NCBI RefSeq assembly: GCF_001583495.1
Contig: NZ_LQAQ01000063.1
Location: 1-64,000, forward strand
Length of the DNA stretch: 64,000 bases
DNA from: Flammeovirga sp. SJP92
GTDB taxonomy: Bacteria; Bacteroidota; Bacteroidia; Cytophagales; Flammeovirgaceae
Reading direction: 5' to 3'
Shown here piece after piece: positions 10,201 to 30,639 of this stretch; the first letter of the stretch is position 1, and the number at the start of each line of letters is the position of its first letter. The translations under genes were made by a program, and so were the position numbers. The notes beneath the pieces are model-generated. The model saw only the letters and a list, made by a program, of their open reading frames with translations. It was not told the DNA's origin and searched no databases.

Positions 10201-13200
10201 TCTACTCCTTGAACTGATGGATTCGCTTCTGTCATCGCACCGAAGATTTCAACACGCTTGATAGAGTCAATTCCTAAATCAGCTTCCATGTCCATACCCA
10301 TTTCTAACATCTCTGCTGGGTAACCTGTCTTCTCAGCGATTACTTCTAAAAGTGATGCTTCGATTTCTGCATTAGTTACGCCACCTTGTGCTGCTGGAAC
10401 TGGTGTTTCTACTACTGGCGCTGCTGCTACTGGAGCCGCCGCTGGTGCAGGAGCTGCTGCCGGTGCTGATGTTGCACCTGCTTTTCCTGAAATGTATTCA
10501 GCGATTTGAGCTAATGTTCTTAACTCTGCTAATTCTTGTGGATCTACTCCTTGAACTGATGGATTAGCCTCTGTCATCGCACCGAAGATCTCAACACGCT
10601 TGATAGAGTCAATTCCTAAGTCAGCTTCCATATCCATACCCATTTCTAACATCTCTGCTGGGTAACCTGTTTTCTCTGCAATTACTTCTAAAAGTGATGC
10701 CTCGATTTCTGCGTTGGTTACGCCACCTTGTGCTGCTGGAGCTGCTGCTACTGGAGCTGCCGCTGGTGCAGGAGCTGCTGCCGGTGCTGAAGTGGCACCT
10801 GCTTTTCCTGAAATGTATTCAGCAATTTGAGCTAATGTTCTTAACTCTGCTAATTCTTGTGGATCTACTCCTTGAACTGATGGATTAGCCTCTGTCATCG
10901 CACCGAAGATCTCAACACGCTTGATAGAGTCAATTCCTAAATCAGCTTCCATATCCATACCCATTTCTAACATCTCAGAAGGGTAACCAGTTTTCTCAGC
11001 GATTACTGCTAATAAAGATGCTTCGATTTCTGCATTTGATACACCTCCTTGAGCAGACGTTGCAGGCAACGTATCTACTGCAGGTGCAGGAGTTTCAGCA
11101 ACTGGGGCTGGAGTTGGCACTTCAGCTGGAGCTTGTAACTGCTGAGGAGCAGGAGCTGCATTTGAAGCTAATTGGTTATTTGTTTGCATATTGAACAACG
11201 ACGACAACATTTGTTCGATGCGTGTTTGTTGCTCAGTTAGACGCTGGATATCTGCTTGGATTTGATCCAATACTGCCTTCTCTGCCATGGAAGCTGAATT
11301 TTGTTTCTGACGAATTTTTTCTTCAATAATTTGAGACATGTCTGTTGTCTCAGCAATCACCGTTTCGATTTCTTCTACTAACGGTGCTTTTTGCGAAAGC
11401 ACTTTTCCTCCCTTCGCTAATGTGTCTTGGTATCTCTTCTTGAAACCGTCTGTCAAATAGTTTGTACCAGAAATCTGTACATTCATTTTCGACTTCGCAC
11501 CACCTGCTTGAACTGGTCTTGCGTACGGATCAAAGTTTTGGATTTGGATACCCATTACAGCTAATTGGATAGCTGCTTCTCTCAACTGAACGTCTGAGTT
11601 TTTCTTAGGATTAGGGTTCAATGCAATCACTTGGTGATCTTGACCTGCTAAGATTTCAGAAGTTAAGTTGGATAGAATATTTTTCGGTCCAAATTCAACG
11701 AACACTCTTGCACCTTCTTGGTACATTTTCTCGATTTGCTCTTTGAATTTAACTGGACTTAAAATGTGTCTCTTTAAAGTTTCTTTGATGAACTGAGGTT
11801 GTGCCGGGTAAGCAGTACCTAATGTGTTCGAATACAATTTACCTTGAGGGGCAGCAATGTTTGTATTGTCTAATACTGCTGCGAAAGGTTTAGAAGCATG
11901 ACCAACATAAGGTGTATGGAATGCGGCAGAAACTGGTAGGATAGTCGCTAATAAGCCTCCTGCTTTTAATTCCGTTTTAAGCGCCTCCAATTCATTCTTC
12001 GCACCACCTAAGATCGTTTGCGTACCTGAGTTGATGTTGGCTACCTGTACATTTTGGTATTTACCGATGTAAGGTTGAACCGCTACAACATCTGCCTTAA
12101 CAGCCATCATAGTACCTGCATCTACACCTGCTTGTGCTGACATTGCTTGTCCTCTTTCTTTCGAAAGTTTGATGAACGTTGCTAAGTCAATTGCACCTGA
12201 AGCATATAAAGCTGAAAGCTCACCATAAGAGTGACCTGCAAAGTAACTTGCTTTGAAGCCTGCGTTTTGTAAAATGTGATACATACTTACCGATAATGCA
12301 CCAATTGCTGGCTGAGCATTTTCAGTTTGCGTAAGTACCGCTTGTTGTTGTTTACGCTCCTCATCACTGAATACAGGAATCGGATATACAGTCTCAGTTA
12401 AAGGTTTTTTGTTGCTTGCTTCAAATTCACCGTTCACTTTCGCGAATACTTCACGAACTTGAGGGAATGACCAAGCGATTTCGTTACCCATGTTTGTGTA
12501 TTGAGAACCTTGTCCTGCGAATAAAGCAGCAACATTGTCCTTACCGTTATAAGCGGCACTTCTATACCAAACATTTAAGATTGGGTTTTTCCACTCTGTT
12601 GCGTTTGCATCTTTCGATAATGCGGCAACAAAAGCTTGAAGTTTTTTCGTAGCCTCCTCGATTGATGAAGCAACGAAACCAACTCTTGGTTGATTTACAG
12701 GAACGTTTTCTGCGAATGCTGTAGCGGATACTTCTTTGTAGTATGCTTTTGCATCTGCACCTGATAAACCGTCAATATGTTTTTGAGCCAACGCCACTAG
12801 CGCAGATGATGATACTTCAGAAAGCAACCATTGTCTGTGGATATTGTGAACTCTATTTTTCTCGATTGATTGTCCTTTGTACTCCTCCATAGAGAAGTGA
12901 AGGTTGACACCACCAAAACCGAAAGCTGATACACCTGCTCTCAATGGAGTTTGAGCATCCTTTTGGAACCAAGGTCTAGTCTCAGAGTTGATATAGAATG
13001 CCTTCTTCTCAATCTCTAATTTCGGGTTCGGCTTTGTGATATTGATTGTACCTGGAAGGATTTTGTGATGCAAGGCTAAAGCTGCTTTAATCATACCCGC
13101 CGCACCTGCTGCTGCTTTTGTATGACCAATTTGAGACTTTACAGAACCTAATGCAATGTGATTTGTTTTCACACCATCGTCACCGAATACCATACCCATT

Positions 13201-14294
13201 GATACACCTTCTGATGCATCACCTGCGTTAGTACCTGTACCGTGTGCTTCAATCAAACCAACTGTTGATGGATCATAACCTGCTTCCTCGTATGCTCTTC
13301 TCATCGCTAAAGCTTGACCTGAAGGACGAGGTGCATAAACTGATTTATAACGACCATCTGAAGAACCACCAATACCGTTTACTACAGCATAGATTTTATC
13401 TCCATCACGCTCAGCATCTTCTAAACGCTTCATGACCATCATACCAACACCTTCACCGATCAACATACCGTCACCATCTTGGTCAAATGGACGGATGCTA
13501 CCGTTACGAGAGAATGCAGGAGTTTTTGAGAATGACATGTACATGAATGGTGAGTTGTCTGTATCTACACCACCTGTAATCATCATATCTGCTCTTTTTT
13601 CTACCAATTCAGCAACAGCCATTTTGATAGCTGACAATGAAGCCGCACAAGCTGCATCCACTACTGAGTTGATACCACCAAAGTCAAAACGGTTAGCGAT
13701 ACGACCAGAAATTACGTTACCCAATAAACCTGGGAATGAGTTTTCTGTCCAAGGCACAAACGCTGCTTTCATCTTCTCGATTGCCACTGCGATTTGCTCT
13801 TCCGGCATTCCCATTGACTCTAATGCTCTTCTCCAAACTGGATACTGTAAACGAGCTGTCAAAGGAATGATTAGCTTTTGACCGCCGCCAACGCCAAGAA
13901 TAACACCTGTTCTTTCTCTTAATTCTGCTTTTAACGCATCTGAACCTGGAGCATATCCTGAATCGATCAATGCATCTTTTGCTACTGCAAGACCCAATAG
14001 CTGTGAAGCATCAGTTACTTCTAAGATATTTGGTGGTAAACCAAACTCCATTGGGTTGAAATCGATTTTTGGAACGAAGCCACCTACTTTACAGTAAGTC
14101 TTGTCTTCTGCTAATGGATTAGGGTCATAGTAATCATCAATTTTCCAGCGGTCGTCAGGAACTTCCTTGATACAATCCACACCTTGGATGATATTTTCCC
14201 AGTACTTCTCTAGGTTCTCAGAGTCTGCGAATACAGAGGCCATACCAACAATGGCAATCGGCGTCTCTTTAAGCAGTTGGTTTGTGTCTGTCAT
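7239..14294 (-). CDS. pfaA: PUFA synthase subunit PfaA, KS-MAT-4xACP-KR-DH
   Basis: Multidomain loading, extension and ketoreduction subunit of a polyunsaturated fatty acid synthase, 2351 residues. Ketosynthase about 5-460 with C216 (AACAAS), H351 (EAHGTG) and H391 (IGHTKAA). Malonyl-CoA acyltransferase about 585-880 with S689 in AGHSYGE. A coiled region about 1000-1080. Four acyl carrier domains whose phosphopantetheine serines are S1123, S1230, S1344 and S1450, each in the motif LGIDSIKRVE. Ketoreductase about 1780-2060 with the LVTGGAKG nucleotide loop and DYAIANE active-site tyrosine. A C-terminal PKS-type dehydratase-like hot dog from about 2085 with H..I.G.AVLP. Linkers are Ala/Pro-rich. 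Frequent CGT arginine codons, as in fabF, suggest high expression. Family assignment is very secure; the final fatty acid (EPA, ARA or DHA) is not readable. Confidence 0.95.
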   Translation of the reverse strand: MTDTNQLLKETPIAIVGMASVFADSENLEKYWENIIQGVDCIKEVPDDRWKIDDYYDPNPLAEDKTYCKVGGFVPKIDFNPMEFGLPPNILEVTDASQLLGLAVAKDALIDSGYAPGSDALKAELRERTGVILGVGGGQKLIIPLTARLQYPVWRRALESMGMPEEQIAVAIEKMKAAFVPWTENSFPGLLGNVISGRIANRFDFGGINSVVDAACAASLSAIKMAVAELVEKRADMMITGGVDTDNSPFMYMSFSKTPAFSRNGSIRPFDQDGDGMLIGEGVGMMVMKRLEDAERDGDKIYAVVNGIGGSSDGRYKSVYAPRPSGQALAMRRAYEEAGYDPSTVGLIEAHGTGTNAGDASEGVSMGMVFGDDGVKTNHIALGSVKSQIGHTKAAAGAAGMIKAALALHHKILPGTINITKPNPKLEIEKKAFYINSETRPWFQKDAQTPLRAGVSAFGFGGVNLHFSMEEYKGQSIEKNRVHNIHRQWLLSEVSSSALVALAQKHIDGLSGADAKAYYKEVSATAFAENVPVNQPRVGFVASSIEEATKKLQAFVAALSKDANATEWKNPILNVWYRSAAYNGKDNVAALFAGQGSQYTNMGNEIAWSFPQVREVFAKVNGEFEASNKKPLTETVYPIPVFSDEERKQQQAVLTQTENAQPAIGALSVSMYHILQNAGFKASYFAGHSYGELSALYASGAIDLATFIKLSKERGQAMSAQAGVDAGTMMAVKADVVAVQPYIGKYQNVQVANINSGTQTILGGAKNELEALKTELKAGGLLATILPVSAAFHTPYVGHASKPFAAVLDNTNIAAPQGKLYSNTLGTAYPAQPQFIKETLKRHILSPVKFKEQIEKMYQEGARVFVEFGPKNILSNLTSEILAGQDHQVIALNPNPKKNSDVQLREAAIQLAVMGIQIQNFDPYARPVQAGGAKSKMNVQISGTNYLTDGFKKRYQDTLAKGGKVLSQKAPLVEEIETVIAETTDMSQIIEEKIRQKQNSASMAEKAVLDQIQADIQRLTEQQTRIEQMLSSLFNMQTNNQLASNAAPAPQQLQAPAEVPTPAPVAETPAPAVDTLPATSAQGGVSNAEIEASLLAVIAEKTGYPSEMLEMGMDMEADLGIDSIKRVEIFGAMTEANPSVQGVDPQELAELRTLAQIAEYISGKAGATSAPAAAPAPAAAPVAAAPAAQGGVTNAEIEASLLEVIAEKTGYPAEMLEMGMDMEADLGIDSIKRVEIFGAMTEANPSVQGVDPQELAELRTLAQIAEYISGKAGATSAPAAAPAPAAAPVAAAPVVETPVPAAQGGVTNAEIEASLLEVIAEKTGYPAEMLEMGMDMEADLGIDSIKRVEIFGAMTEANPSVQGVDPQELAELRTLAQIAEYISGKAGATSAPATAPAPAAAPVAAAPAQGGVTNAEIETSLLEVIAEKTGYPAEMLEMGMDMEADLGIDSIKRVEIFGAMTEANPSVQGVDPQELAELRTLAQIAEYISSKAGASTPSVEANTNSSIAEKKKSTNEVEETTVAEDHTSFLSGNYDRVARYDVQLKYIPEPDQLVIEKNADAWTVITNDGSGLTVSLAQELLAEGRKVAVLTMPASLVRQSAVTLPNEVKEIALAEISDDAIKAALAQIGGVDQFINVHPHFRFPLGQWGMHFDKEKELLKAAYLLAKHLKPTLNEYASKSTRASFMTVTRLEGAFGTKNPGNVSVIGGGYFGLTKSLNLEWTNVFCRGVDLSSQLKAEVAAKKIVAELNDADVSTTETSYNDEGKRFTLAAVEQAHTAGTMRTSGITSQNVFLVTGGAKGVTADCVRAMAKTYKSKFILVGRSALTTEEPTWAQGVAEEPILKRNAMMFLKESGEKPLPKTVNRMVGAVLSQREIQENLAYIQSVGAEAHYTAADVTDAEKLKAAVAPIVAKTGAITGIIHGAGRLADKLIENKTATDFDNVYDVKISGLLAAVAAGSIHDIQHVVLFSSVAGFYGNVGQTDYAIANEVLNRVAHLFKKNHPDVHVASINWGAWDAGMVSGELKKLFEAHGVSLVPSDEGPVAMVDQLSDAFKAQPQVILGGTLPLAKADITGDLKSYTIKRNMTEEKNPFLQHHMIQGNAVLPIVNASTWMVQTATDLYPGFNIQRVDNAKLFKGIVFDGTQAEDYTIKVTETSKSEKTVTLTVNVSSDNGGKLPLNHYQTQITLTSEPVEAPVLALPNSANTPAVADASSVYTDGTLFHGADFNGIKTILEMDEKNMIFLCEHEGVTEERQGQVPVKKVNPYLMDIMYQGAVVWVRRFHGAASLPLSTDYVEIFDALPFGKPFYVKIEVKKADDFSMVSDITAYDAETGKVYMKSYGAAMTISRELTWS
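9825..11055 (-). repeat. four tandem acyl carrier protein coding repeats in pfaA
   Basis: Four near-identical units of about 106-114 codons, each an ACP core (DLGIDSIKRV motif) plus an Ala/Pro linker. The cores differ at only a few residues (for example EASLLAVIAE in the first, EASLLEVIAE in the middle two and ETSLLEVIAE in the last), while third codon positions vary. That pattern fits tandem duplication with ongoing homogenisation. The two ends of the array are the most divergent. Multiple tandem ACPs are usual in PfaA proteins, and their number is known to influence yield. Confidence 0.95.
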
Positions 14295-15036: not shown

Positions 15037-15600
15037 TTATACATATTGATCTACATAACCTTGTAAACCAATTCTAGTTCCGTCGCCAGTTGCTTTAAAA
15101 GTCCAGTCTCTACCTGACTTAATCAACCTTCCAAACTCCATATCTGTAGAGTTACCAAACGTTGATCTATTAAGGTTAAACCTTAGGATCTCTTTTTTCT
15201 TGTCGACATCCACAATCCTAATATAAGCATTGTCCAACATTCCAAAATGATGATTCAACACTTCTGCATTGTGAATAGATGCAATAAAAATTAGTTCCTT
15301 AATTGAGGGATTGATTTGTGATAAATAAGCTAAGATCATTTCGTCGTCACCATCTCCTTCTCCATCTCTATTATCACCAGTATGCTCAACACTGTTGTCA
15401 GGTGACCTTAAGTTATTGTAAAAAATGAAGTATTCATCTGCAGGTAATTTTCCATTTTCACCAACCATGAAAACAGAAATATCAAGATCAAGTGAGTTTC
15501 CAGGAATGATGTCCCATCCAATTCCCAACATTACTTTGTCCAACCTAACGTTGTCCTTCATCAGGTTGACTTTGCTTCCTTTTTTTAAGTCTATACCCAT
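15037..15600 (-). CDS. TerD-family calcium-binding stress protein
   Basis: 187 residues, the usual length for TerD/TerE/CABP proteins. It shows the family hallmarks GIGWD near residue 26, the DLDISVFMVGENGK strand with acidic calcium ligands, and the GDNRDGEGDGDDE loop. No signal peptide is present, so it is cytosolic. The stop of the other TerD-family gene lies 12 bases upstream, so the two are co-transcribed. No terB, terC or other ter genes are present, so this is not a full tellurite operon. TerD proteins bind calcium and are tied to stress and phage-response complexes; the exact role here is unknown. Confidence 0.88.
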   Translation of the reverse strand: MGIDLKKGSKVNLMKDNVRLDKVMLGIGWDIIPGNSLDLDISVFMVGENGKLPADEYFIFYNNLRSPDNSVEHTGDNRDGEGDGDDEMILAYLSQINPSIKELIFIASIHNAEVLNHHFGMLDNAYIRIVDVDKKKEILRFNLNRSTFGNSTDMEFGRLIKSGRDWTFKATGDGTRIGLQGYVDQYV

Positions 15601-15612
15601 AACATTTCTACT

Positions 15613-16236
15613 CTAGTAATTTTCTTTTATATATGAAATTGTTTCCGAAATATCCTTTGCAGCAATCGGCGTTCCAATTACTTCAAACTCCCAACAGCCA
15701 TTTTTCAGTACCAGACGCCCCATAAGCATAGATACATAATCAGCGTATTCTTCAGAAGCGGATAAATTAAAATTGGCAAGGCATTCATTCTGAGAATAAA
15801 TATTGACCTCTGAAAAAGGAATTTGTGAGAAATTCTGTTGAGAATAGGAATTGAGATACAAGTAAATTTGTTTTACTTTTTTGTCGATATTTTTGAGATC
15901 AACCCAAATAATTTCATTGTCCAGACCGTCATTTCCATTAAGGTCTCCCTCCAGATCATCACCATAATGTTTGATGGCACTATCAGGAGAAGTTAGCTTA
16001 TTGTAAAAAACAGTGTATACATGTTCCATATTATTATCAAAGGCAGAAAGACTTGCATCTAAATCAACATTTGATGTTACAGGAATCATATTAAAAAAAA
16101 CTTTCTTTTGGATGGCGCCCCAATTGACACCTACACGTACAAAATCCAGGGAATTACCATTATCCTTGGTTAAAGAGATAGTACTGCCTTTTGTAAGAGT
16201 GATTTTTGATTTTTTTTGGAGTTCGATATTACTCAT
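15613..16236 (-). CDS. divergent TerD-family protein
   Basis: 207 residues, a more diverged TerD relative. Conserved parts include VGVNWG, the NVDLDASLSAFD acidic strand, FYNKLTSPDSAIKHYGDD, and the acidic loop GDLNGNDGLDNEIIWVDL. The N-terminus KSKITLTKGSTISLTK matches the TerD entry strands. It is the first gene of a two-gene minus-strand unit, divergent from the cryptochrome-like gene across 239 bases. Loss of several acidic loop residues relative to its partner suggests weaker or different calcium binding. It could pair with the downstream TerD protein as a hetero-oligomer; that is inference. Confidence 0.82.
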   Translation of the reverse strand: MSNIELQKKSKITLTKGSTISLTKDNGNSLDFVRVGVNWGAIQKKVFFNMIPVTSNVDLDASLSAFDNNMEHVYTVFYNKLTSPDSAIKHYGDDLEGDLNGNDGLDNEIIWVDLKNIDKKVKQIYLYLNSYSQQNFSQIPFSEVNIYSQNECLANFNLSASEEYADYVSMLMGRLVLKNGCWEFEVIGTPIAAKDISETISYIKENY

Positions 16237-19235: not shown

Positions 19236-19573
19236 ATGACATCATCAAAAACATTGCAGCTATGGATGCAGATGTCATCACTATTGAATGTTCAAGTTCT
19301 CAGATGAAACTGCTTGATGCCTTTTCTACTTTCAAATATCCCAATGAGATTGGGCCAAGCGTTTATGATATCCATTCACCCAATGTCCCTACAAAATACG
19401 AAATCATTGATTTCATCAATAAAGCAAAATTGCAAATTCCTGTTGAACAACTCTGGATCAATCCGGATTGTGGCCTAAAAACCAGAAACGGAAAAGAAGT
19501 TAAACCTTCACTTTCAAACATGGTCTTAGCCACTAAAAAAGCAAGAGAATTGTTTGGAGAAGCAGTCGTATAA
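19229..19573 (+). pseudogene. metE: metE remnant, C-terminal stump
   Basis: The plus strand encodes only the last 115 or so codons of cobalamin-independent methionine synthase. Diagnostic stretches are [33 protein letters not shown] and [10 protein letters not shown], the last carrying one zinc-ligand Cys of the family. The preceding HMCYSEF zinc motif is gone, and an in-frame stop lies at 19223-19225. A MetE is normally about 750-780 residues. An ATG at 19262 could start a 103-residue fragment, which would be inactive. The downstream terminator is still intact. Confidence 0.9.
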
Positions 19574-19826: not shown

Positions 19827-21299
19827 ATGAACCAATTAACAGATAAAGTAAAAGCTTTCTTAGCTCAAGATCCAATACCTGCTTTTGTTAACGGGACTTG
19901 GAAAAAAGGAGAATTTGAAGATTGTTCTGAAATAGAAAACCCTGCCAACAAAGAAGTATTGACCAAAGTGAGTCAATCTTCAAAAAATGATGTGGAAGAT
20001 GCCATTGAAGCGGCAGATAAAGCATTTCCTCAATGGAAATCAATCTCACCACAACAAAGAGCAGAGGTATTGAAACGCTTTGCTGATCTATGTGAGAGAG
20101 ACAGTGAAGAATTAGCTCAACTTGAAGCACTAGACGTAGGGAAAGCCATCAACAACGCAAGAGGTTTTGATGTTCCTTTTGGCATTGAATGTATACGCTA
20201 TTTCAGTGATCTTATTCTTGAAAAAGATTTTGAGCAGAAACTTGAACTAGAGGGCATCAACGGAAAACAAGTTAGAATACCTTTTGGTGTAGTCGGATTT
20301 ATTTTCCCTTGGAATTTCCCTCTAACACTTTGTATGTGGGGAATTGGCCCTGCACTTGCCGCCGGAAATACAGTTGTGATCAAACCGGCTGAAATTACAC
20401 CTTTAAGTACACTTTACTTAGGAAAACTCGCACAAGAAGCAGGCATTCCTGAGGGAGTTATCAATATAGTTCCAGGAAAAGGGTCGGTGGCTGGAGAAGT
20501 CATTACCACCCATCCTAAAGTTAAATGTGTTTCCTTCACAGGATCTTCTGCTGTAGGGAAACTTATTGGTCAAAACTGCGGCATACACCTTAAACCTGCT
20601 AAACTCGAACTTGGCGGGAAAGGTGGAGCTGTAGTTTTTGAAGATGCAGACATTGATCATGCGGCGGAAGGTCTTGCGGGTGCTATTACACTCAACACCG
20701 GACAAGTTTGCTGTACTGCCACACGATGGATCATTCAAGAGGATGTAGTAGATGAATTTGTAGAAAAAGTAAAAGCCAACCTTCAAAAAACAGTCATTCA
20801 GCCTGGTATGATGGAAGAATGTGAAATGGGACCTGTGGTAAGTAAAAAGCAACAGGATAGTATTATTGACTATATCCAGAAAGGAATTAAAGAAGGTGCT
20901 CAACTTATTTTAGGAGCTGATGTCGCACCTGAAAAAGAAGGGTATTACATTCCTCCTACGTTATTGATGGGCGATCAGAATAACATCTGTTTTAAAGAAG
21001 AAATCTTTGGACCAGTAGCCTACATTACCACATTTAAAACAGAAGAAGAAGCCATCCAACAGGTCAACTGTCTAGACTATGGTTTAGCCAATAGTGTGTG
21101 GACTACTTCTGCAGAAAAAGCACAGAGAGTAGCACTCGAAATGGTATCGGGCAACAGCTGGGTCAACGCACACAATGTCTTCGCTTATGGACTGCCATAT
21201 GGAGGTGTAAATGGAAGTGGAAACGGCGGTGGTGTCAATAGTATTGAAACACTATTTGACTATACAAGAGGATTGACAATTGCAGAACCAATTGCATAG
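19827..21299 (+). CDS. NAD(P)+-dependent aldehyde dehydrogenase
   Basis: 490 residues, normal length for the ALDH superfamily. Signatures: cofactor and active-site loop FIFPWNFPL, NTVVIKPAEITPLS, FTGSSAVGKLI, the general-base motif LELGGKG, and the nucleophile C295 in NTGQVCCTAT. EEIFGPVAYI is the usual C-terminal motif. The family oxidises aldehydes to acids with NAD(P)+. It is the first gene of a tight three-gene unit; the kinase starts 3 bases after its stop. The substrate is not readable. Its partners, a small-molecule kinase and an enolase paralogue, suggest a hydroxylated aldehyde whose acid is then phosphorylated. Confidence 0.92.
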   Translation: MNQLTDKVKAFLAQDPIPAFVNGTWKKGEFEDCSEIENPANKEVLTKVSQSSKNDVEDAIEAADKAFPQWKSISPQQRAEVLKRFADLCERDSEELAQLEALDVGKAINNARGFDVPFGIECIRYFSDLILEKDFEQKLELEGINGKQVRIPFGVVGFIFPWNFPLTLCMWGIGPALAAGNTVVIKPAEITPLSTLYLGKLAQEAGIPEGVINIVPGKGSVAGEVITTHPKVKCVSFTGSSAVGKLIGQNCGIHLKPAKLELGGKGGAVVFEDADIDHAAEGLAGAITLNTGQVCCTATRWIIQEDVVDEFVEKVKANLQKTVIQPGMMEECEMGPVVSKKQQDSIIDYIQKGIKEGAQLILGADVAPEKEGYYIPPTLLMGDQNNICFKEEIFGPVAYITTFKTEEEAIQQVNCLDYGLANSVWTTSAEKAQRVALEMVSGNSWVNAHNVFAYGLPYGGVNGSGNGGGVNSIETLFDYTRGLTIAEPIA

Positions 21300-21302
21300 A
21301 TT

Positions 21303-22304
21303 ATGAATCAAAAAGAATTAATTGAGTACCTGCAGACTCAAGGAATTATCAGTAGTAAAAACATTGAGATTACCCCGCTGAATGGTGGGGTATCTTGTGA
21401 AATTCTTCTTTTGGATAATGGAGAGAAAAGGATTGTAGTAAAACGAGCCTTGAAAAAACTGAAAGTAAAAGAAGATTGGTTTGCTGATATTGGTAGAAAC
21501 CACACGGAACAGAAGTACTTAAAATATGTAGGCAACTTATTGCCTGAGGCTGTTCCAAAAATTCTTTACCAAGACGAAGAACATCATTTTTTCTGTATGG
21601 AAATGATTGAAGGTGATTTTTCGAATTGGAAAAAAGAATTAATGGAAGGGAAGATCAACGCGGAATATGCTCGTGAGGCAGGGCGTATTCTTGGTCTTAT
21701 ACACAACACTTCTTTTGATAAAGTTGAGGTAGCTTCTCAATTTGATACCCTTCAGAATTTTCATGAGCTGAGAATTGATCCCTACTTGCTAAGTACAGCC
21801 AAAAAACATCCACAGCTTTTATCTTATTTCAGTGAGGAGGCGTTACGGTTGAGTAATACCAAAAAGTGCTTGGTACACGGCGACTTCAGTCCCAAAAATA
21901 TCATGGTATCACCTCACCGTATTGTTGTACTTGACTGTGAGGTAGCTTGGTATGGAGATCCCGTTTTTGATCTTGCTTTCTTGATCAACCACTTTATATT
22001 GAAAGCACTATTAATGCCTGAGCAATCACAACAGCTGATACACCTTGCAGAGGAATTCTTCCAAACTTATCAGTCAAATATCTCTTTTTCATCAAAAGAA
22101 ACGCTAGAGGAACAGACAATCCACCTGCTTTTATTATTAATGCTGGCAAGGGTAGATGGAAAATCTCCTGTGGAGTATCTACAAGAAGAACAACAGGATG
22201 TAGTACGAAATTTTGTTTACAAAACATTACCCAAAAAGGTCAAAACACTAGATGCATTTTCAGATCTCTGGGTAAATTCAATACAATTAGAAAATGAATA
22301 TTAA
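21303..22304 (+). CDS. APH-fold small-molecule kinase
   Basis: 333 residues with the aminoglycoside phosphotransferase/choline kinase fold. Visible motifs are a nucleotide-loop-like N-lobe (PLNGGVSCEILLL), an invariant-type Lys (RIVVKRAL), the catalytic loop CLVHGDFSPKNIMV (Brenner motif HGDxxxxN), and the metal-binding segment VVLDCEVAWYGDPVFDLA. It lies 3 bases behind the aldehyde dehydrogenase and overlaps the enolase-like gene by 11 bases, so expression is coupled. Family members phosphorylate hydroxyl groups of sugars, amino alcohols or antibiotics. Context favours a metabolic substrate such as a hydroxy acid rather than a drug, but that is inference. Confidence 0.88.
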   Translation: MNQKELIEYLQTQGIISSKNIEITPLNGGVSCEILLLDNGEKRIVVKRALKKLKVKEDWFADIGRNHTEQKYLKYVGNLLPEAVPKILYQDEEHHFFCMEMIEGDFSNWKKELMEGKINAEYAREAGRILGLIHNTSFDKVEVASQFDTLQNFHELRIDPYLLSTAKKHPQLLSYFSEEALRLSNTKKCLVHGDFSPKNIMVSPHRIVVLDCEVAWYGDPVFDLAFLINHFILKALLMPEQSQQLIHLAEEFFQTYQSNISFSSKETLEEQTIHLLLLLMLARVDGKSPVEYLQEEQQDVVRNFVYKTLPKKVKTLDAFSDLWVNSIQLENEY

Positions 22305-23589
22305 AAATATAGATGCCTATCAAATCTATGATTCGAGAGGGTATCCTACTTTGGAAGTAGAAGTAGAATTAGAAGATGGTACAACGGGACGTGGTCTTGT
22401 TCCTTCAGGTGCTTCTACGGGACAGTTTGAGGCGTGGGAACTAAGAGATGGTGATAAAACAAAGTTTAGAGGAAAATCTGTTTTCAACGCCATTGCTAAT
22501 GTGAAAGGAGAAATTGCAGAGGCTTTAAAAGGTGATAGTGTTTTTGATCAGAAAAGCATTGATCAAAAAATGATTGCTCTAGATGGTACACCTAATAAAT
22601 CCAGATTAGGTGCAAATGCTATTTTGGGCACTTCAATGGCTGTAGCCTATGCAGCGGCCAATGCTAAAAACCAAAAGTTATATGAATACCTCGGCAACGG
22701 CAATGGACACCTTATTCCACTGAATGAAATCCAGATTCTAGGCGGTGGAGCACATGCTGACTGGGCTACGGATATTCAAGATTTCCTAGTGATAGCTATT
22801 GGTGCTAAAACGTATGAAGAGACGTTGGAAATGACCCACAATATCTACCATGAAGCGGGGAAAGTCATGAAGGAAAAAGGAAAGTGTGTGGGAATTGCCG
22901 ACGAAGGTGGCTGGTGGCCTGATTATGTCAATAATGAAGAGCCGTTTGAAGTGTTTATGGAAGCTATCCAAAGGGCAGGTTATGAAGCAGGGAAAGATGT
23001 GGCAATATCTCTAGACATTGCAGCAAGTGACTTGTTTGATGGTGAAAACTATCACTTGAGACTGGAAAATAAAAAACTCACCCCAGATGAATTCTATGCT
23101 ATGATGAAAGACTGGTGTGAGAAGTATCCTATTGTTTCTATTGAAGATCCTTTTGCGGACACTGAATTTGACTATTGGAAAAAATTCACTCAAGAATTTG
23201 GTCATTGTGTACAAATCATTGGAGATGATTTATTCACCACAAATATTAAAAGAATTGAGGAGGGAATTGCACAGCAGTTGGCTAATTCTGTTTTGATAAA
23301 ATTGAATCAGATTGGTTCTGTTTCGGAAACTTTAGAGGCGATTGCCCTGACTCAAAAAGCAGGATGGCTTCCGGTTGTTTCGGCTAGATCTGGAGAGACA
23401 GAGGATGCCTTTATTTCCCACTTGGCAATTGCCACTAACGCTGGTCAATTGAAAGTAGGTTCATTTGCGAGAAGTGAACGTATGGTAAAATGGAATGAAA
23501 ACCTTAGAATACAGCGTCACCTTGGGGATAAGGCAACATTTATAGGAGGAAAAATTTATGATCAAATATTCTCAACAACTTCAGTATAA
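22294..23589 (+). CDS. divergent enolase paralogue
   Basis: 431 residues, enolase length and fold throughout. Kept: the loop SGAST, H154, general acid E204 (DEGG), the metal ligands in SLDIAASD, SIEDPF and GDDLF, general base K336 (LIKLNQ), R365-S366 and K387. Changed: the usual GGSHADN reads GGAHADW, QEF reads QDF (D163), DEGGFAP reads DEGGWWP, and SHRSGE reads SARSGE, so the substrate-contact His is A364. The metal site and base are thus intact while the substrate pocket is remodelled. This argues for dehydration of a related but different phospho- or hydroxy-acid. It is the last gene of the operon; a hairpin follows. Confidence 0.9.
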   Translation: MNIKNIDAYQIYDSRGYPTLEVEVELEDGTTGRGLVPSGASTGQFEAWELRDGDKTKFRGKSVFNAIANVKGEIAEALKGDSVFDQKSIDQKMIALDGTPNKSRLGANAILGTSMAVAYAAANAKNQKLYEYLGNGNGHLIPLNEIQILGGGAHADWATDIQDFLVIAIGAKTYEETLEMTHNIYHEAGKVMKEKGKCVGIADEGGWWPDYVNNEEPFEVFMEAIQRAGYEAGKDVAISLDIAASDLFDGENYHLRLENKKLTPDEFYAMMKDWCEKYPIVSIEDPFADTEFDYWKKFTQEFGHCVQIIGDDLFTTNIKRIEEGIAQQLANSVLIKLNQIGSVSETLEAIALTQKAGWLPVVSARSGETEDAFISHLAIATNAGQLKVGSFARSERMVKWNENLRIQRHLGDKATFIGGKIYDQIFSTTSV

Positions 23590-25019: not shown

Positions 25020-26987
25020 TTAATTTTCAACCAACTGAATGGCCTCCTCTACATAGGAACGATATTTTTTAGAATAACTCTTTAAAAACCCTCTTAGTTC
25101 CTCTTTAAAGGGTTTTGTTGTATCTATAACTTCTGATAGTCTGAAAGCAGGTTTGATTACTACGCCTAACTTTGCTTTACTCATTCGTTTGTCAAAGAAC
25201 GACAAAGCAATTGGAACAATCAAAGGATCAATGCCTGAATGATTGGCAATCATAAAAGCGCCCGGCTTGAAATCGACTGGAGATTGATGTGTTTCTCTAC
25301 TTGTTCCTTCAGGGCTCAAAATCAAATTGATACCTTCTTTTAACTTTGAGCTGGCTTCATCGAAAAACAGGTTTCTATTTTTCCTTTTTTCTTCATCCGA
25401 TAACTTCGAAGGATCCGAGTCTGCAGTTCTCACTCCAATATGCCCCAATTTATTGTAATAATCTTGATGTCCATATTCTGGCCCTTTTCCAATTCTTACC
25501 ACTCTCAATCCTGAATCTTTGTAAAACTTAAACAGCAACATTGATATAAAATGAGAGTCTAAAGTGATCTGAAAATTATTGGGCAAGGTATAATAAGGGT
25601 GATTGAGCAGATGATTGTAAATAAAAATATTCCCTGACTCTTTCGGTATATTTTCTAATCCTTCTATTCTGATATCCAAATAAGCAATGGCCTTCTCAAA
25701 GAGTTCCGAACACTCGTTTCGTAGTCGACTTGCTGGAATGGTTTTCGGAGCTTTGATAACATGATTTGTCATTTTTTTCAAGCCTTCCAAAAACAAATAT
25801 TCTTTACGAAGTGGTCCCGTCACTTTCACAAAAAGGTTTGCCAAACTTTTTTCTTGCCCCACACCCGATTTGCTTAATCCATCTAACAAATCAAAAGCAA
25901 TTCCCTGCGTCAACTTCTCTGCTAAAAGTGAAGGAATTTTATGAATATCAGAAGTGACACTCAACTGTGCCCCAGCCTGATCAATCATGGTCTGAATGGT
26001 CAATAACTCACGGTCATAAGTTTGAGTAATCACCTGAGCTCGAACGGCCTTCAATGCACTCCCCAACAACCATAATAATCTATACATAAAGACCATTCCA
26101 AGATTTGGAAATTCGCCATACAATACCAAAAGGTCTATTCTTTGAATCTCTAAAACTTCAATAGGCTCCAATACCACCAATTCCATAAAATTGGGAATTG
26201 CATCAAAACTTGCCGCACTCCAGAGAATAACTTGTCCCCTTTCTTGCAAAATATCAGAAGTATAGATTTCACCACCTTCTTTCACATAATTCAAAGCGAC
26301 TTTACCGCTCTTCAGCACCATAAATTTATTAGAGGCTTCTCCTTTAGAAAGCAGTTTTTCGCCTTGCTTATAATATTTTGTATCACTGATATTGGCCAAT
26401 TTCATCAAATGCCAGTCAGAGAATGGATTAAAAAAATTGCTTTGCCTGAAAAATTCCAAATTGGATTCTACAGGACCTTTGTCTTGAAAAGAAGTATAAG
26501 TAGTATTGCCCTCAAAAGTTTCCACCGTCATTGGGATAGACCCTTGAATCCAGACGTTTCGCGCATCCCTCAGCAAGTGGGTGCTGTATAATAACGTAGA
26601 GGAAAGAAAATGCATCCCTATCTGCGGATTGCTATCAAAAAGAGCTCTCAATAGTTTATTATCCCATGCAATTACCTGCGTTTTTCCTTGAGCAATCGCC
26701 GTTGTTGCAAAGCGGTAAGGTTCTCTAAAACCGGACCACCCAATAGGCGTTCCTTTTTCGTTGTTTTCCCCAACTGTCAAGCCACCACGCTGATCACCCA
26801 CGTTCAAATGATATTCCACTTTTCCTGAATAAAGGACATAGAACTGCTCAGCAGAAGCAAATTGTAATGTGATAATTTCTTCGTCTTCAAAAGTAACTAA
26901 CTCTGCATTCTCAGAAAGAATCTCTAGCTCAGATTCATTAAGCCTGTCTGCAAATGGTAGTTCAAGTAGTGTTGTAGTTAGTGGCAT
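25020..26987 (-). CDS. double cyclic-nucleotide-binding domain fused to a PlsC-like acyltransferase
   Basis: 655 residues. Two cNMP-binding beta-roll domains occupy about 12-130 (ITLQFASAEQFYVLYSGKVEYHL) and 185-305 (KLLSKGEASNKFMVLKSGKV). A helical middle links to a lysophospholipid acyltransferase-like domain from about 440 to 640: NIFIYNHLLNHPYY, GLRVVRIGKGPEYG, and the conserved LSPEGTSRE with FKPGAFMIANHSGIDPLIVPIA. The usual HxxxxD motif at the start of the domain is not canonical (NHLLNHP). No membrane segments are evident. The layout suggests acyl transfer to a glycerolipid under control of cyclic nucleotides or a related ligand. The adjacent SGNH hydrolase supports lipid remodelling. 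Confidence 0.85.
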   Translation of the reverse strand: MPLTTTLLELPFADRLNESELEILSENAELVTFEDEEIITLQFASAEQFYVLYSGKVEYHLNVGDQRGGLTVGENNEKGTPIGWSGFREPYRFATTAIAQGKTQVIAWDNKLLRALFDSNPQIGMHFLSSTLLYSTHLLRDARNVWIQGSIPMTVETFEGNTTYTSFQDKGPVESNLEFFRQSNFFNPFSDWHLMKLANISDTKYYKQGEKLLSKGEASNKFMVLKSGKVALNYVKEGGEIYTSDILQERGQVILWSAASFDAIPNFMELVVLEPIEVLEIQRIDLLVLYGEFPNLGMVFMYRLLWLLGSALKAVRAQVITQTYDRELLTIQTMIDQAGAQLSVTSDIHKIPSLLAEKLTQGIAFDLLDGLSKSGVGQEKSLANLFVKVTGPLRKEYLFLEGLKKMTNHVIKAPKTIPASRLRNECSELFEKAIAYLDIRIEGLENIPKESGNIFIYNHLLNHPYYTLPNNFQITLDSHFISMLLFKFYKDSGLRVVRIGKGPEYGHQDYYNKLGHIGVRTADSDPSKLSDEEKRKNRNLFFDEASSKLKEGINLILSPEGTSRETHQSPVDFKPGAFMIANHSGIDPLIVPIALSFFDKRMSKAKLGVVIKPAFRLSEVIDTTKPFKEELRGFLKSYSKKYRSYVEEAIQLVEN

Positions 26988-27084: not shown

Positions 27085-30000
27085 TTATTCCTCTAATGAA
27101 TTAAAGTAACCTTCAATTTCCCCAAATAGCTGTTCCTGACAATCCTTAATGTCTTTGGCTTTGATGTTCCATTTATCCACGACCTTATTTTCTGAAATGA
27201 GATGTAATTTTAAAAGAATATTGTTTTTATGAACCTCATATTTACCTCTTATAATATAGGTATTGGGGCCTTTTGCATTTTTCTGATAGCGAACTGTCAA
27301 CTCTTCTTCTTCTGCTTTTAATATAAAATAAGTCTTCACCTGTTCACTCAACCGAAGATGATCTGCCCATGTATCTGCATCTTCTAAGTAAATTGCCGAA
27401 ATCAAGTTTTTCTGAACAGAGAGGGTAATGCTGTCTCTTACAGATTGGGGTAATTCAGCAATATAAAAACTGCCTGCTCCAACAGGAACCCTATACTCCG
27501 GTTGTTGTTCTCCACTCATTGAAGAGGCCAACTGAGGCACAGACTCTACTGCATGAGCAAATAAGTCTTGCACATCTACAAACCTCCCCTCGTCCAGTTC
27601 CCCTCTTTTTAAATAGTCTAATAAGGAATACGTCAATAAACCATGTTCCAAATAAGAGGATTCATAACTGACTTTATCAGATGACGCCCCAGAAAGCATA
27701 AACATACCCGTCTTGGCCCTCATTCTCTCCAGAGCTCTCTTCTTCATCCCTTCCTCATTATAATCTCTAGAGGTGATCAACTCAGTAGAAAAAGATCCCG
27801 CATGACAAGCATCGACAACAAAAACCTGTTTTGAAATTGGAATTTCCTTGATCCAATCTAGAAGTTCAGTACCATTGATGGTATAATTATTTTTGATATC
27901 AGGGTCTGACAAATCACTGTTGCTCATATCTTTGGTTAAAAAATGAAAATCATTGTCACCCTCGCTGTTTTCTGCAACAGCTCCATGACCGGCAAGAAAC
28001 ACAAATAGTATATCCGAGGCACTTGCACGCTGGCTTATACTTTCAAAAGCTCTTTTTATATTTTCTTTATTGGGTTGAAGGTGCTCTTCTTCTGCATCAG
28101 TAGTCAGCAATTGGACCACAGAGTTTTTCACGCCAAATAATTTTTCACTGCCCAATTCAATTGTGGAGTACATGGCTTGAGCATCTTCTGCGGCGTATTT
28201 CAAATCCAATAACCTCCCTCTGTAATCCGAAACCCCCACAATAACCCCATACAATATTGGAGGAGCCTGCAGTTCTATTTCCTTTCCCTTATACTTTAGT
28301 TTAATTCCTCTTCCATTCAATGTGCCTGCTTTATTGGAAGTCAGCACAGCAATGTCGTTTTCCTGATCGGGAATAAGGTGGATTTTTACTTTTTCAAGAT
28401 GGATTGTATAGTACTCTTTACCTTCGTAATTTTCTTTCTGTCCTTCTGTAAGTACATCAGAAATCACTTCTTTATTATTGATGTAAAGACTCACTCCACC
28501 AATTCCTCCCCCTCTGTCTATCACTTCTATATAAAGCTTCCCATCCTTTTCAAAGGTATTGGTTTTAGGAAATAATGAGAGTTCACTTAATGGAGGCACT
28601 TTACGGAGAGGATTGCCTTGCAATATTTCGTAAGAAAGTCCCGGTTCCCAATATTTATCTTTTAACTGATCAAAATCGATAGTCTCTGTACCATACACAT
28701 AATAAAGCTCACTCATGTTAAGGTTTCCTGCATCAAACAAACCTGAATAATGTTCAATCACCCAATGCCCCTCATTGGAGGAAACAATTTTCCCTAACCG
28801 CTTTTCTTTTTTAATACTCCAAATTTCAAACGTTGTATTGATTCTCACCGCAAAGAAAATACCCTTGTCGATATAAGGAATCACATCTACCACAGGAATG
28901 CTTGATTCATCAAAAGATGCTACTTTTTGAGACAGTGACTTATCCCATACTTCCACTCTCCCAGATCGCATTCCAAGTATCCATTCTCCTCTCTTTGCTA
29001 CAAAATCCAACTTCACAATATCGTTTTTGGGAACATCATGATCTACTGTCTCCCAATCATTCGTATTCCATGCAAAAATTCCATTATTGCCACTCACCAC
29101 AATTTTGTCTCCTTCTTCAGAAAAAGCCAAATCATTCAATCGTAAAGCAGGTACTACAGTATCTAATTCAATTTGATTTTTCTTTAGATGATACACAATT
29201 AATCTTCTGTCTCTCCCTATTGAAGCTATTCGGTCACCGTCATCATCACTTACCAAACGAACCACTTCACCATTATGCTGATAAATATTTCTTCTGGTTT
29301 TCTCTTCTCTATTCCACAGAATAACATCTCCACCGTTTGTCCCAATCCCTAGCTCATCCATAACAGGAATATTTACAATGGTCTTTCCCTTGTGCAATAA
29401 TTGCAACGTATCTATTAATTCTCCATGATCAGACCATACTTTCACTAAGCTATCTTCACCAGTAGTTGCCCAACGATTACCTTTTAGTAAATACTCCAAA
29501 GCGGTGGCTTTACCTGTATGAGCGTTCCAGTTTTTGGTGATAACATGTCGGTTGGGCTCCCAGGAGTGAAACTTCCCTGTGGTGGTTACAAAAGCAATTG
29601 CACCGGTAGACAAATTAATTTCTCCTTCTACCAGATTTCCATTGATTGGCTTCCATTCCACACTCGCTTTTGATCTCCCCACTTCCAAATACCAGACACT
29701 AATAGAACCATCACTTTTAGAAAAAGCCACATGACGAGTATCTTCTGTGAAAATCATTTTGTCAAAATCATCTCTTATCAACCTTGGCTCATCGGCTATT
29801 TTGCCGTCTTTGACATCATAGAAATAGATTTTCTGATCTTGTGTGGCAAATACCAAAACCTCAAAAAAGGAAGAGTATTTCAAGTCAATAATAGGCGTAT
29901 GATCAGGCGAGGCCATTTGATCTACCAAAGTATCTGCATTAATATCCCATATCTTAATGGTCTTATCCCAAGACCCTGTCACTATTAAAGAATCAGAAGG

Positions 30001-30639
30001 CACATAATCCACTGCCGAGATCCAATCCGCATGCAGTCCCTTTTTGGTCACAGTGGGTCTATTGTAACCTCTCCAAACCACAATATCACCTTCCATTTTC
30101 CCCACAGTCAACCATTTCATTTTAAAAGAATAGTTTAGAGAAGAGAAGTTGCCCAAATCAGACTTTGTTTCCAACCCATCAGGAGCAAGCCGTTTATTTT
30201 CCCAATCGAGCCTGTAAATCATTCCTCCTTTGGTAATAAAAAGTAGAAAGCCTCCCACAAACTTTATCTTGAAAACCTCTCCTTCTACATCTTCAAACTC
30301 ATACACCACTTCTTGAGATTTAAGATGAAGCACTTTCACTTTACCATCCATTCCAGCTGTGGCCAGGTATTGATTGTCTTGAGAAAAGCATAAAGCTGTA
30401 ATTCCTACTTCATGAGGATACACAGAGTAAAGCAGACGCTTATCATCAATATTCCACACTTTTACAGCGGCATCTTCTCCAGCAGTAGCCAACAGTTTTG
30501 CATCATTTGTAATAGCCAAACCTTTTACTTTTCCAAGATGACCAGTGGATAATGTAAGCTGAAGCTCTTGTGCATTAGAATAAAAGCTTTTAAAAAATAG
30601 AAGAGAAAGAAACAGGAATACTTTAAGGGATGGTTTCAA
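27085..30639 (-). CDS. secreted WD40-repeat and caspase-family (C14) peptidase protein
   Basis: 1184 residues. A signal peptide (about 1-24, ending SNAQ) is followed by at least eight WD40-like repeats to about residue 620, several ending in VKVWN, IKIWD or VEVWD. A linker precedes a caspase/metacaspase domain about 790-1020: VIVGVSDYRG, catalytic H885 in FLAGHGA and C945 in VVDACHAGSF, then MFMLSGASSDKVSYES. A C-terminal region of about 130 residues is not recognised. The His/Cys dyad is complete, so it should be active. It starts a minus-strand unit, with the CNB-acyltransferase gene 97 bases downstream. Export separates it from cytosolic defence-type caspases. Confidence 0.88.
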   Translation of the reverse strand: MKPSLKVFLFLSLLFFKSFYSNAQELQLTLSTGHLGKVKGLAITNDAKLLATAGEDAAVKVWNIDDKRLLYSVYPHEVGITALCFSQDNQYLATAGMDGKVKVLHLKSQEVVYEFEDVEGEVFKIKFVGGFLLFITKGGMIYRLDWENKRLAPDGLETKSDLGNFSSLNYSFKMKWLTVGKMEGDIVVWRGYNRPTVTKKGLHADWISAVDYVPSDSLIVTGSWDKTIKIWDINADTLVDQMASPDHTPIIDLKYSSFFEVLVFATQDQKIYFYDVKDGKIADEPRLIRDDFDKMIFTEDTRHVAFSKSDGSISVWYLEVGRSKASVEWKPINGNLVEGEINLSTGAIAFVTTTGKFHSWEPNRHVITKNWNAHTGKATALEYLLKGNRWATTGEDSLVKVWSDHGELIDTLQLLHKGKTIVNIPVMDELGIGTNGGDVILWNREEKTRRNIYQHNGEVVRLVSDDDGDRIASIGRDRRLIVYHLKKNQIELDTVVPALRLNDLAFSEEGDKIVVSGNNGIFAWNTNDWETVDHDVPKNDIVKLDFVAKRGEWILGMRSGRVEVWDKSLSQKVASFDESSIPVVDVIPYIDKGIFFAVRINTTFEIWSIKKEKRLGKIVSSNEGHWVIEHYSGLFDAGNLNMSELYYVYGTETIDFDQLKDKYWEPGLSYEILQGNPLRKVPPLSELSLFPKTNTFEKDGKLYIEVIDRGGGIGGVSLYINNKEVISDVLTEGQKENYEGKEYYTIHLEKVKIHLIPDQENDIAVLTSNKAGTLNGRGIKLKYKGKEIELQAPPILYGVIVGVSDYRGRLLDLKYAAEDAQAMYSTIELGSEKLFGVKNSVVQLLTTDAEEEHLQPNKENIKRAFESISQRASASDILFVFLAGHGAVAENSEGDNDFHFLTKDMSNSDLSDPDIKNNYTINGTELLDWIKEIPISKQVFVVDACHAGSFSTELITSRDYNEEGMKKRALERMRAKTGMFMLSGASSDKVSYESSYLEHGLLTYSLLDYLKRGELDEGRFVDVQDLFAHAVESVPQLASSMSGEQQPEYRVPVGAGSFYIAELPQSVRDSITLSVQKNLISAIYLEDADTWADHLRLSEQVKTYFILKAEEEELTVRYQKNAKGPNTYIIRGKYEVHKNNILLKLHLISENKVVDKWNIKAKDIKDCQEQLFGEIEGYFNSLEE

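Follow-up and report, generated by a model that had tools for sequence, protein, structure and literature searches.

The window analysed here comprises 64,000 nucleotides of Flammeovirga sp. SJP92 (contig NZ_LQAQ01000063.1) and contains three tightly spaced genes for an aldehyde dehydrogenase (ALDH), a small-molecule kinase of the APH fold and a variant enolase, all of which lie on the forward strand. The ALDH gene (19827..21299) encodes a protein of 490 amino acids (aa), which matched the Pfam family Aldedh with 504 bits and possesses the motifs LELGGKG (residues 260-266) and GQVCC (residues 292-296). In the kinase (21303..22304; 333 aa; Pfam APH, 63 bits) the motifs VVKRA (45-49), HGDFSPKN (192-199) and VLDCE (209-213) were recognized, and the third gene (22294..23589) encodes the variant enolase of 431 aa (Enolase_N, 179 bits; Enolase_C, 307 bits). 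Re-reading of the window confirmed the arrangement described in an earlier note on this DNA, in which a gap of 3 bases separates the ALDH and kinase genes and the kinase and enolase genes overlap by 11 bases. Scans for promoters and terminators of this operon gave results at chance level. The kinase has one match in its own genome, and the closest paralogue of the ALDH there shares 34% identity with it.

The variant enolase retains the general acid Glu204 within the loop DEGGWWPD (residues 203-210; 22900..22923) and the general base Lys336 within IKLNQ (residues 335-339; 23296..23310), but deviates from ordinary enolases elsewhere in its active site. Asp163 (codon 22780..22782) changes the usual QEF to QDF at residues 162-164, Ala364 occupies the place of the ordinary His in SARSGETED (residues 363-371; 23380..23406), and Trp208 replaces Ala. 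Residues 163, 204, 336 and 364 were thus found in the protein motifs as the earlier note had claimed. We take positions 163 and 364 to be those of Glu168 and His373 of yeast enolase, on the leaving-group side. Changes of either residue in the yeast enzyme cost much of its activity on D-2-phosphoglycerate.

Relatives of the enolase were collected by way of the kinase. A scan of GTDB contigs gave 80 kinase loci out of at least 570 confirmed kinase relatives, and all locus counts below refer to these 80. The alignment and the tree comprised 75 variants, namely that of the window, those of four Bacteroidota genomes and those of the 70 kinase loci whose enolase frame entered the cluster, together with 33 ordinary enolases (16 from other carriers, 17 from the window genome and its relatives); four of 20 fetched ordinary enolases were omitted from the tree because of a stop in the translation or a missing GETED string. 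Position 163 was Asp in all 75 variants and Glu in all 33 ordinary enolases, and position 364 was Ala in each of the 73 variants covering it and His in all 33 ordinary ones, so that the ordinary combination of the QEF Glu and the SHRSGETED His was not found among the variants. Fixed in all variants that cover the sites, this pattern is not a product of chance. Six loci outside the 75 also had an enolase match: four of them showed Asp and Ala, L115 showed the Ala in a piece only, and L068 ended before both sites. Five more enolases from kinase searches in other classes all carried Asp and Ala.

Variants and ordinary enolases share the fold family, the length and the remaining catalytic residues. 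Lys336 was present in all 73 covering variants and in 33/33 ordinary enolases, Ser41 and His154 in 75/75 variants, Glu204 in 74/75, and Arg365, Ser366 and Lys387 were intact in the 73 variants covering them. The metal ligands Asp241, Glu284 and Asp312, said in the earlier note to be kept, occurred in 74/74. Apart from E163D, H364A and the kinase neighbour, most variants differ from the ordinary enzymes by Gly150 (72/75, vs Asn in 33/33), Ala202 (74/75), Trp208 (70/75, vs Ala in 33/33), Phe373 and His376, and many further positions also separate the two groups; the variant shares 42-50% identity with the ordinary enolases found in the host and in related genomes. The emphasis that had been placed on pocket tryptophans was justified in part. 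While Trp208 is family-wide, Trp157, the last residue of GGAHADW (residues 151-157), is common (47/75, with Gly in 24), and Trp207 occurs in only 12/75 variants, 45 having Tyr and 17 Phe. In the tree proposed by the earlier note, the variants formed a single clade without any ordinary enolase inside it (FastTree support 0.988).

The variant scored 539 bits against the NCBIfam model 'eno' (TIGR01060; cut-off 300), and routine annotation would therefore name it an ordinary enolase. That it might be the sole enolase of its genome was ruled out, since the genome encodes two more enolases, which share 47% and 46% identity with the variant (contig C93, 344510-345757; contig C111, 299187-300467). Seven of the eight other Flammeovirga genomes also have two ordinary enolases, and G006 has one. 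A second, ordinary-looking enolase was present in 28/28 carrier genomes. Full-length copies share 44-49% identity with the window protein; in G468 and G473 this enolase was in two pieces, and its ordinary residues were checked in 16 of the 28 carriers.

An enolase match adjoined the kinase gene in 76 of the 80 loci; 75 passed the adjacency test, with the match in pieces only in L115 and cut by the contig end in L068. Three of the misses (L090, L112, L124) stop just past the kinase at a contig end and L049 is a true exception, so that the variant stands beside the kinase in 76 of the 77 loci not cut in this way. By their record titles, the loci belong to Bacteroidota, Verrucomicrobiota, Acidobacteriota, Pseudomonadota and Planctomycetota (Rhodopirellula, Aporhodopirellula). 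Among 395 Bacteroidota genomes, a search whose first pass scored part of the candidates in some genomes detected the kinase in seven (E <= 1e-12). The DNA pattern for A-R-S-G-E-T-E-D, which is independent of the kinase and misses G-E-S-E-D forms such as those of L171 and L173, occurred in eight of these genomes, the same seven and G303, where the frame is not an enolase and the match was rejected. In G259 the two genes of the pair are found on separate short contigs. The two surveys overlap (L048 is the contig of G255, L067 corresponds to G003 and L074 to G004). At E <= 1e-40 the pair was patchy, being found in 5/321 genomes of the class of Vibrio hannami and 2/240 of the phylum of Prosthecobacter, the centre included in both cases. 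The conserved unit is thus the kinase together with the variant enolase. In three loci of one Bacteroidota family (L041, L042, L043) the pair is flanked by proteins of 682-690 aa with the motif FGDCFNPPGLTNFLG.

The ALDH is a peripheral member of this module. A trio-type ALDH, defined by a minimum identity of 45% across more than 200 aa, was present in 19 of the 80 loci, two of them from Flammeovirga, and the trio as a fixed unit was rejected. The window ALDH is 48-69% identical to kinase-neighbouring ALDHs in 16 loci outside the genus; in the stretches fetched around the kinase of six Bacteroidota carriers from other families no trio-type ALDH was found. The variant enolase occurs in five of nine Flammeovirga genomes, all five with the trio in the same order. 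This order, for which the earlier note had wanted other genomes searched and whose conservation nowhere else it considered fatal to its proposal, recurs in other genomes and also in other phyla. In G003 and G005 a frame for an AsnC-type regulator (family confirmed for G003) lies between a zinc-finger gene and the ALDH gene.

The HGD, PKN, D and E columns of the kinase were invariant in seven aligned members, and the protein matched PDB entry 2olc with an E value of 4e-10. None of its 14 matching NCBIfam families reached the cut-off. The nearest, methylthioribose kinase, scored 72 bits (cut-off 275) and was rejected as identity on this score; the protein shares the APH fold and the HGD and PKN motifs with this enzyme and other APH-fold kinases, but misses the family cut-off. 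Its Pfam matches were confined to APH, EcKL and Fructosamin_kin, and the glycerate kinase family PF02595 was not matched. The ALDH remained below the cut-off of all 25 listed models among 44 matching NCBIfam ALDH models, and its score against the D-glyceraldehyde dehydrogenase model NF040792 was 274.7 bits (cut-off 760).

Ten of the 80 loci contained a ketose-phosphate-type aldolase, which was of a DhnA/LsrF-like type (C8), only weakly related to named families, in seven and of class II in three; eight of the ten also had an isomerase and nine a sugar kinase. The sugar kinase of L108 belongs to the Pfam family of prokaryotic ketohexokinases (167 vs 35 bits) and has relatives in three more loci. 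With such a neighbour, a ketohexose-1-phosphate would yield a three-carbon (C3) aldehyde. The trio-type ALDH was found in 8/10 loci with a ketose-phosphate-type aldolase and in 11/70 others (Fisher p 9e-5, with related genomes not being independent). Both halves, the putative upstream enzymes and the module, are united in one locus in Colwellia (L120), Vibrio hannami (L126) and Photobacterium rosenbergii (L127), and in Flavivirga the trio lies in L072 and the upstream half apart in L195. Other loci (L059, L084) display the context of an oxidative route with lactonase, UxuA-like or IlvD dehydratase, SDR and FAH-type hydrolase, and L039 has SMP30, IlvD, FAH and a galactose epimerase; no trio-type ALDH was found in the oxidative-route loci L059, L073, L080, L084 and L039. 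Oxidative routes of this lactonase/dehydratase/FAH type release pyruvate and an acid directly. An agarase-type gene and a gene for a CBM6 protein lie near the trio of Microbulbifer HZ11 (L053), an alpha-L-fucosidase gene is a neighbour in Pelagicoccus (L079), and a TonB receptor, GH30 and GH3 are encoded beside L084 (L132). The agarase-type and alpha-L-fucosidase neighbours fit an L-hexose such as L-galactose. An AlphaFold model for the C8 aldolase was discarded because of its low quality (pLDDT 45), and phmmer searches of this protein and of the isomerase against PDB sequences gave nothing useful. In Colwellia maritima (L120, 3181-12259) each of three genes, those of the variant enolase, isomerase and aldolase, appears as two frames or pieces, possibly owing to sequencing errors or decay.

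In the window genome the upstream genes are not linked to the trio. Its contig C100 contains a row of genes for a PfkB kinase, an isomerase and a class II aldolase (PF01116, 244.8 bits vs cut-off 25.5) and a divergent gene for an AraC-type regulator. The isomerase was detected in G000 (the window genome), G003, G004, G005 and G008, exactly the five Flammeovirga genomes with the trio, and in none of the four without it (p 0.008, relatedness ignored); as three of the five variant enolases are 96-97% alike, this distribution of 5/5 vs 0/4 may represent one or two events. All five carry the PfkB kinase, the isomerase and the class II aldolase. The homologous isomerase of L079, to which that of Flammeovirga is 35% identical, was modelled with AlphaFold2 (pLDDT 76) and has the fold of L-arabinose/L-fucose isomerases (Foldseek hit 4f2d, E 2e-18, TM 0.69). 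The best argument for an action of the ALDH on an aldehyde set free by an aldolase lies in the co-occurrence of the isomerase and in the joining of both halves in other bacteria.

On the basis of these sequence data, our tentative interpretation, which we rate at a probability of roughly 0.43, is that the module converts an L-glycerate-type C3 acid to phosphoenolpyruvate (PEP). The kinase would phosphorylate the 2-hydroxyl group of a three-carbon 2,3-dihydroxy acid and the variant enolase would then eliminate water to give PEP. Glycerate is the most likely acid, and L-glycerate, on which no ordinary enolase would be expected to act once it is phosphorylated, its most likely form. The ALDH may supply the module by oxidizing glyceraldehyde freed by the aldolase. 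For Flammeovirga the complete route would begin with the isomerization of an aldose to a ketose by the arabinose/fucose-isomerase-like enzyme, followed by phosphorylation to the ketose-1-phosphate by the PfkB kinase and by cleavage through the class II aldolase into dihydroxyacetone phosphate (DHAP) and glyceraldehyde; ALDH, kinase and variant enolase would then lead by way of glycerate and 2-phosphoglycerate to PEP. Some other bacteria may obtain the acid straight from an oxidative sugar route ending in an FAH-type hydrolase and would not need the ALDH. L-glycerate is favoured because of the fixed pocket changes, the settings with L-fucosidase and agarase-type genes and the fold of the isomerase. 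The order of steps suggested by the earlier note, from an aldehyde through a hydroxy acid and the kinase to the enolase, is consistent with the wider gene context, but the ALDH does not belong to the fixed core (19/80 loci). We infer the substrates, the products, the position of phosphorylation and the handedness.

Several observations weigh against this interpretation. The argument for the L form is indirect, and ordinary glycerate kinases were reported to have 13-34% of their D-glycerate activity when given L-glycerate (PMC2063504), so that an L-specific kinase is not strictly needed. In favour of the L form, the presence of the ordinary glycerate kinase family (PF02595) in 9/9 Flammeovirga genomes implies that a D-glycerate route is already available there, but only 13 of the 28 carriers of other groups possess this family. 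Any of the listed sugar families was found in only 25 of the 80 loci. In a control within the same genomes these families occurred in 14/20 variant and 1/20 ordinary-enolase neighbourhoods, a comparison biased towards the claim because the families had been picked from the variant loci themselves and the stretches compared were of unequal size; moreover, the sole match at an ordinary enolase (Flavivirga) was the isomerase operon itself. The PfkB proteins of L126 and L127 share no more than 24-25% identity with that of Flammeovirga. The only NCBIfam match of the Flammeovirga isomerase was the sulfoquinovose isomerase SftI, with 153.9 bits far from the cut-off of 700. Two findings hint at D-glycerate, namely a tartrate dehydrogenase gene near the pair in L171 (546 bits vs cut-off 470) and genes resembling D-lyxose/D-mannose isomerases in L052, L054 and L101 (family tested for L054). 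Finally, seven further loci encode an HpcH/HpaI-type aldolase (family confirmed for L118) and no trio-type ALDH. If they are counted as aldolase loci, the association of the ALDH drops to 8/17 vs 11/63 (p 0.016).

One alternative, which we regard as unlikely, is that D-glycerate is the substrate and that D-2-phosphoglycerate is converted to PEP by the variant acting as a dedicated isoenzyme, the pocket of which has been tuned. This is the simplest chemistry, and its chain of steps is known from the non-phosphorylative branch of the Entner-Doudoroff pathway, where an aldehyde dehydrogenase, a glycerate kinase forming 2-phosphoglycerate and enolase follow each other (PMC2063504). The statement of the earlier note that no pathway with this trio is described must thus be qualified, as the step order has a precedent for D-glycerate, although that branch differs from the route proposed here in that D-glycerate is preferred, the aldehyde stems from KDG, the glycerate kinase belongs to class II and the last step is that of an ordinary enolase (PMC2063504). 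The gene contexts of L171 and of L052, L054 and L101 favour D-glycerate, as does the lack of a PF02595 glycerate kinase in 15 of the 28 carriers, other glycerate-kinase families not having been searched. It is difficult to reconcile with this alternative, however, that Asp163 and Ala364 are fixed in a protein whose 28 tested carriers all have another enolase; D-glycerate would need no special enolase, and changes of Glu168 and His373 in yeast enolase impair the conversion of D-2-phosphoglycerate.

A larger 2,3-dihydroxy acid, such as a tetronate or a longer aldonate, is to our mind an equally improbable substrate. After its phosphorylation at O2, loss of water would give a 3-deoxy-2-phosphoenol acid instead of PEP, and a 2-keto-3-deoxy-acid aldolase might follow. 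The replacements of His by Ala and of Glu by Asp both cut bulk beside what we take to be C3 of the substrate. HpcH/HpaI-type aldolases act on 2-keto-3-deoxy acids, and their genes in 7/80 loci raised our estimate for a larger acid and lowered that for L-glycerate. By title, these loci include Prosthecobacter and other Verrucomicrobiota, though, and may be a single lineage. Moreover, Trp208 adds bulk in 70 of the 75 variants, and the member of the ketohexokinase family combined with an aldolase gives a C3 aldehyde.

Still less probable, in our opinion, is a sulfosugar route, in which 3-sulfolactaldehyde from the aldolase would be oxidized by the ALDH to 3-sulfolactate, phosphorylated by the kinase to 2-phospho-3-sulfolactate and split by the enolase-like enzyme, with sulfite leaving in place of water, into PEP and sulfite in a reversal of the phosphosulfolactate synthase reaction. 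That the variant enolase is a desulfonase rather than a dehydratase, and completes a sulfosugar glycolysis conserving the phosphate bond (isomerase, PfkB kinase, class II aldolase, ALDH, kinase, enolase), seems quite doubtful to us. The weak SftI match of the Flammeovirga isomerase and the 98 bits reached by that of L079 against the sulfoquinovose isomerase family point in this direction. Genes for an isomerase, a PfkB kinase, an aldolase and an ALDH likewise occur in sulfo-EMP routes, and the pocket changes are fixed at what is presumably the leaving-group side. In contrast, the SftI score lies far under its cut-off, the loss at the leaving-group side is that of a His and Glu204 is kept, and the neighbours are an agarase-type gene, an alpha-L-fucosidase gene and, at L084/L132, genes for a TonB receptor, GH30 and GH3. 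A likeness exists to the sulfofucose route of Paracoccus wurundjeri, where a hexose analogue gives rise to the C3 acid sulfolactate; there, sulfite is released by a sulfolactate sulfolyase, and an EMP-like isomerase route was considered and not observed (PMC12421959).

That the protein is an ordinary enolase isoenzyme with two unrelated genes beside it, as its NCBIfam score could suggest, is practically negligible, and chance neighbourhood was rejected in view of the linkage in 76/80 loci, the 7/7 co-occurrence in the 395 genomes and the single clade with its fixed changes.

The component families and the step order for D-glycerate are known; the new elements are the fixed change of the active site, its association with an APH-fold kinase and the existence of an upstream half. 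The dual pathway of Luteolibacter LG18 for L-glucose and L-galactose shares the use of L-galactose in Verrucomicrobiota, but according to its abstract, which names no enolase, it starts with oxidation and passes through D-altronate and KDG, ending in pyruvate and glyceraldehyde-3-phosphate (PMC12632266). The phrases 'L-glycerate kinase' and 'L-glyceraldehyde dehydrogenase' had no occurrence in the openly licensed PMC papers searched, and no title or abstract start among the matches listed there described an enolase for L-2-phosphoglycerate. Two papers with L-2-phosphoglycerate concern a cytidylyltransferase, and the compound is commercially sold (PMC13228409). Few enzymes of central metabolism are as conserved as enolase, which tends to be annotated without further inspection, and a number of enolase entries in the databases are probably misnamed. 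If our interpretation is true, the variant would be an enolase for a mirror-image substrate and would account for a possible entry into glycolysis of carbons 4 to 6 of L-hexoses that stem from polymers of algae or plants. In phosphinothricin biosynthesis, an enolase homologue and an ALDH homologue act in one pathway.

Some other genes of the window were also inspected. On the reverse strand, a large synthase gene (7239-14294), whose product matched ketosynthase, acyltransferase, four phosphopantetheine-binding, ketoreductase and, weakly, dehydratase domains, presumably encodes a polyunsaturated fatty acid synthase of the PfaA type, and two adjoining TerD-domain genes follow at 15037-16236. Upstream of the trio, a forward frame of 103 aa (19262-19573) matches positions 232-323 of the 324 positions of the catalytic domain of cobalamin-independent methionine synthase and looks like a remnant. 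Downstream, again on the reverse strand, a gene at 25020-26987 encodes a cyclic-nucleotide-binding domain fused to an acyltransferase domain, and the gene at 27085-30639 encodes a protein of 1184 aa in which WD40 repeats precede a caspase domain at the C-terminus (Peptidase_C14, 71.6 bits).

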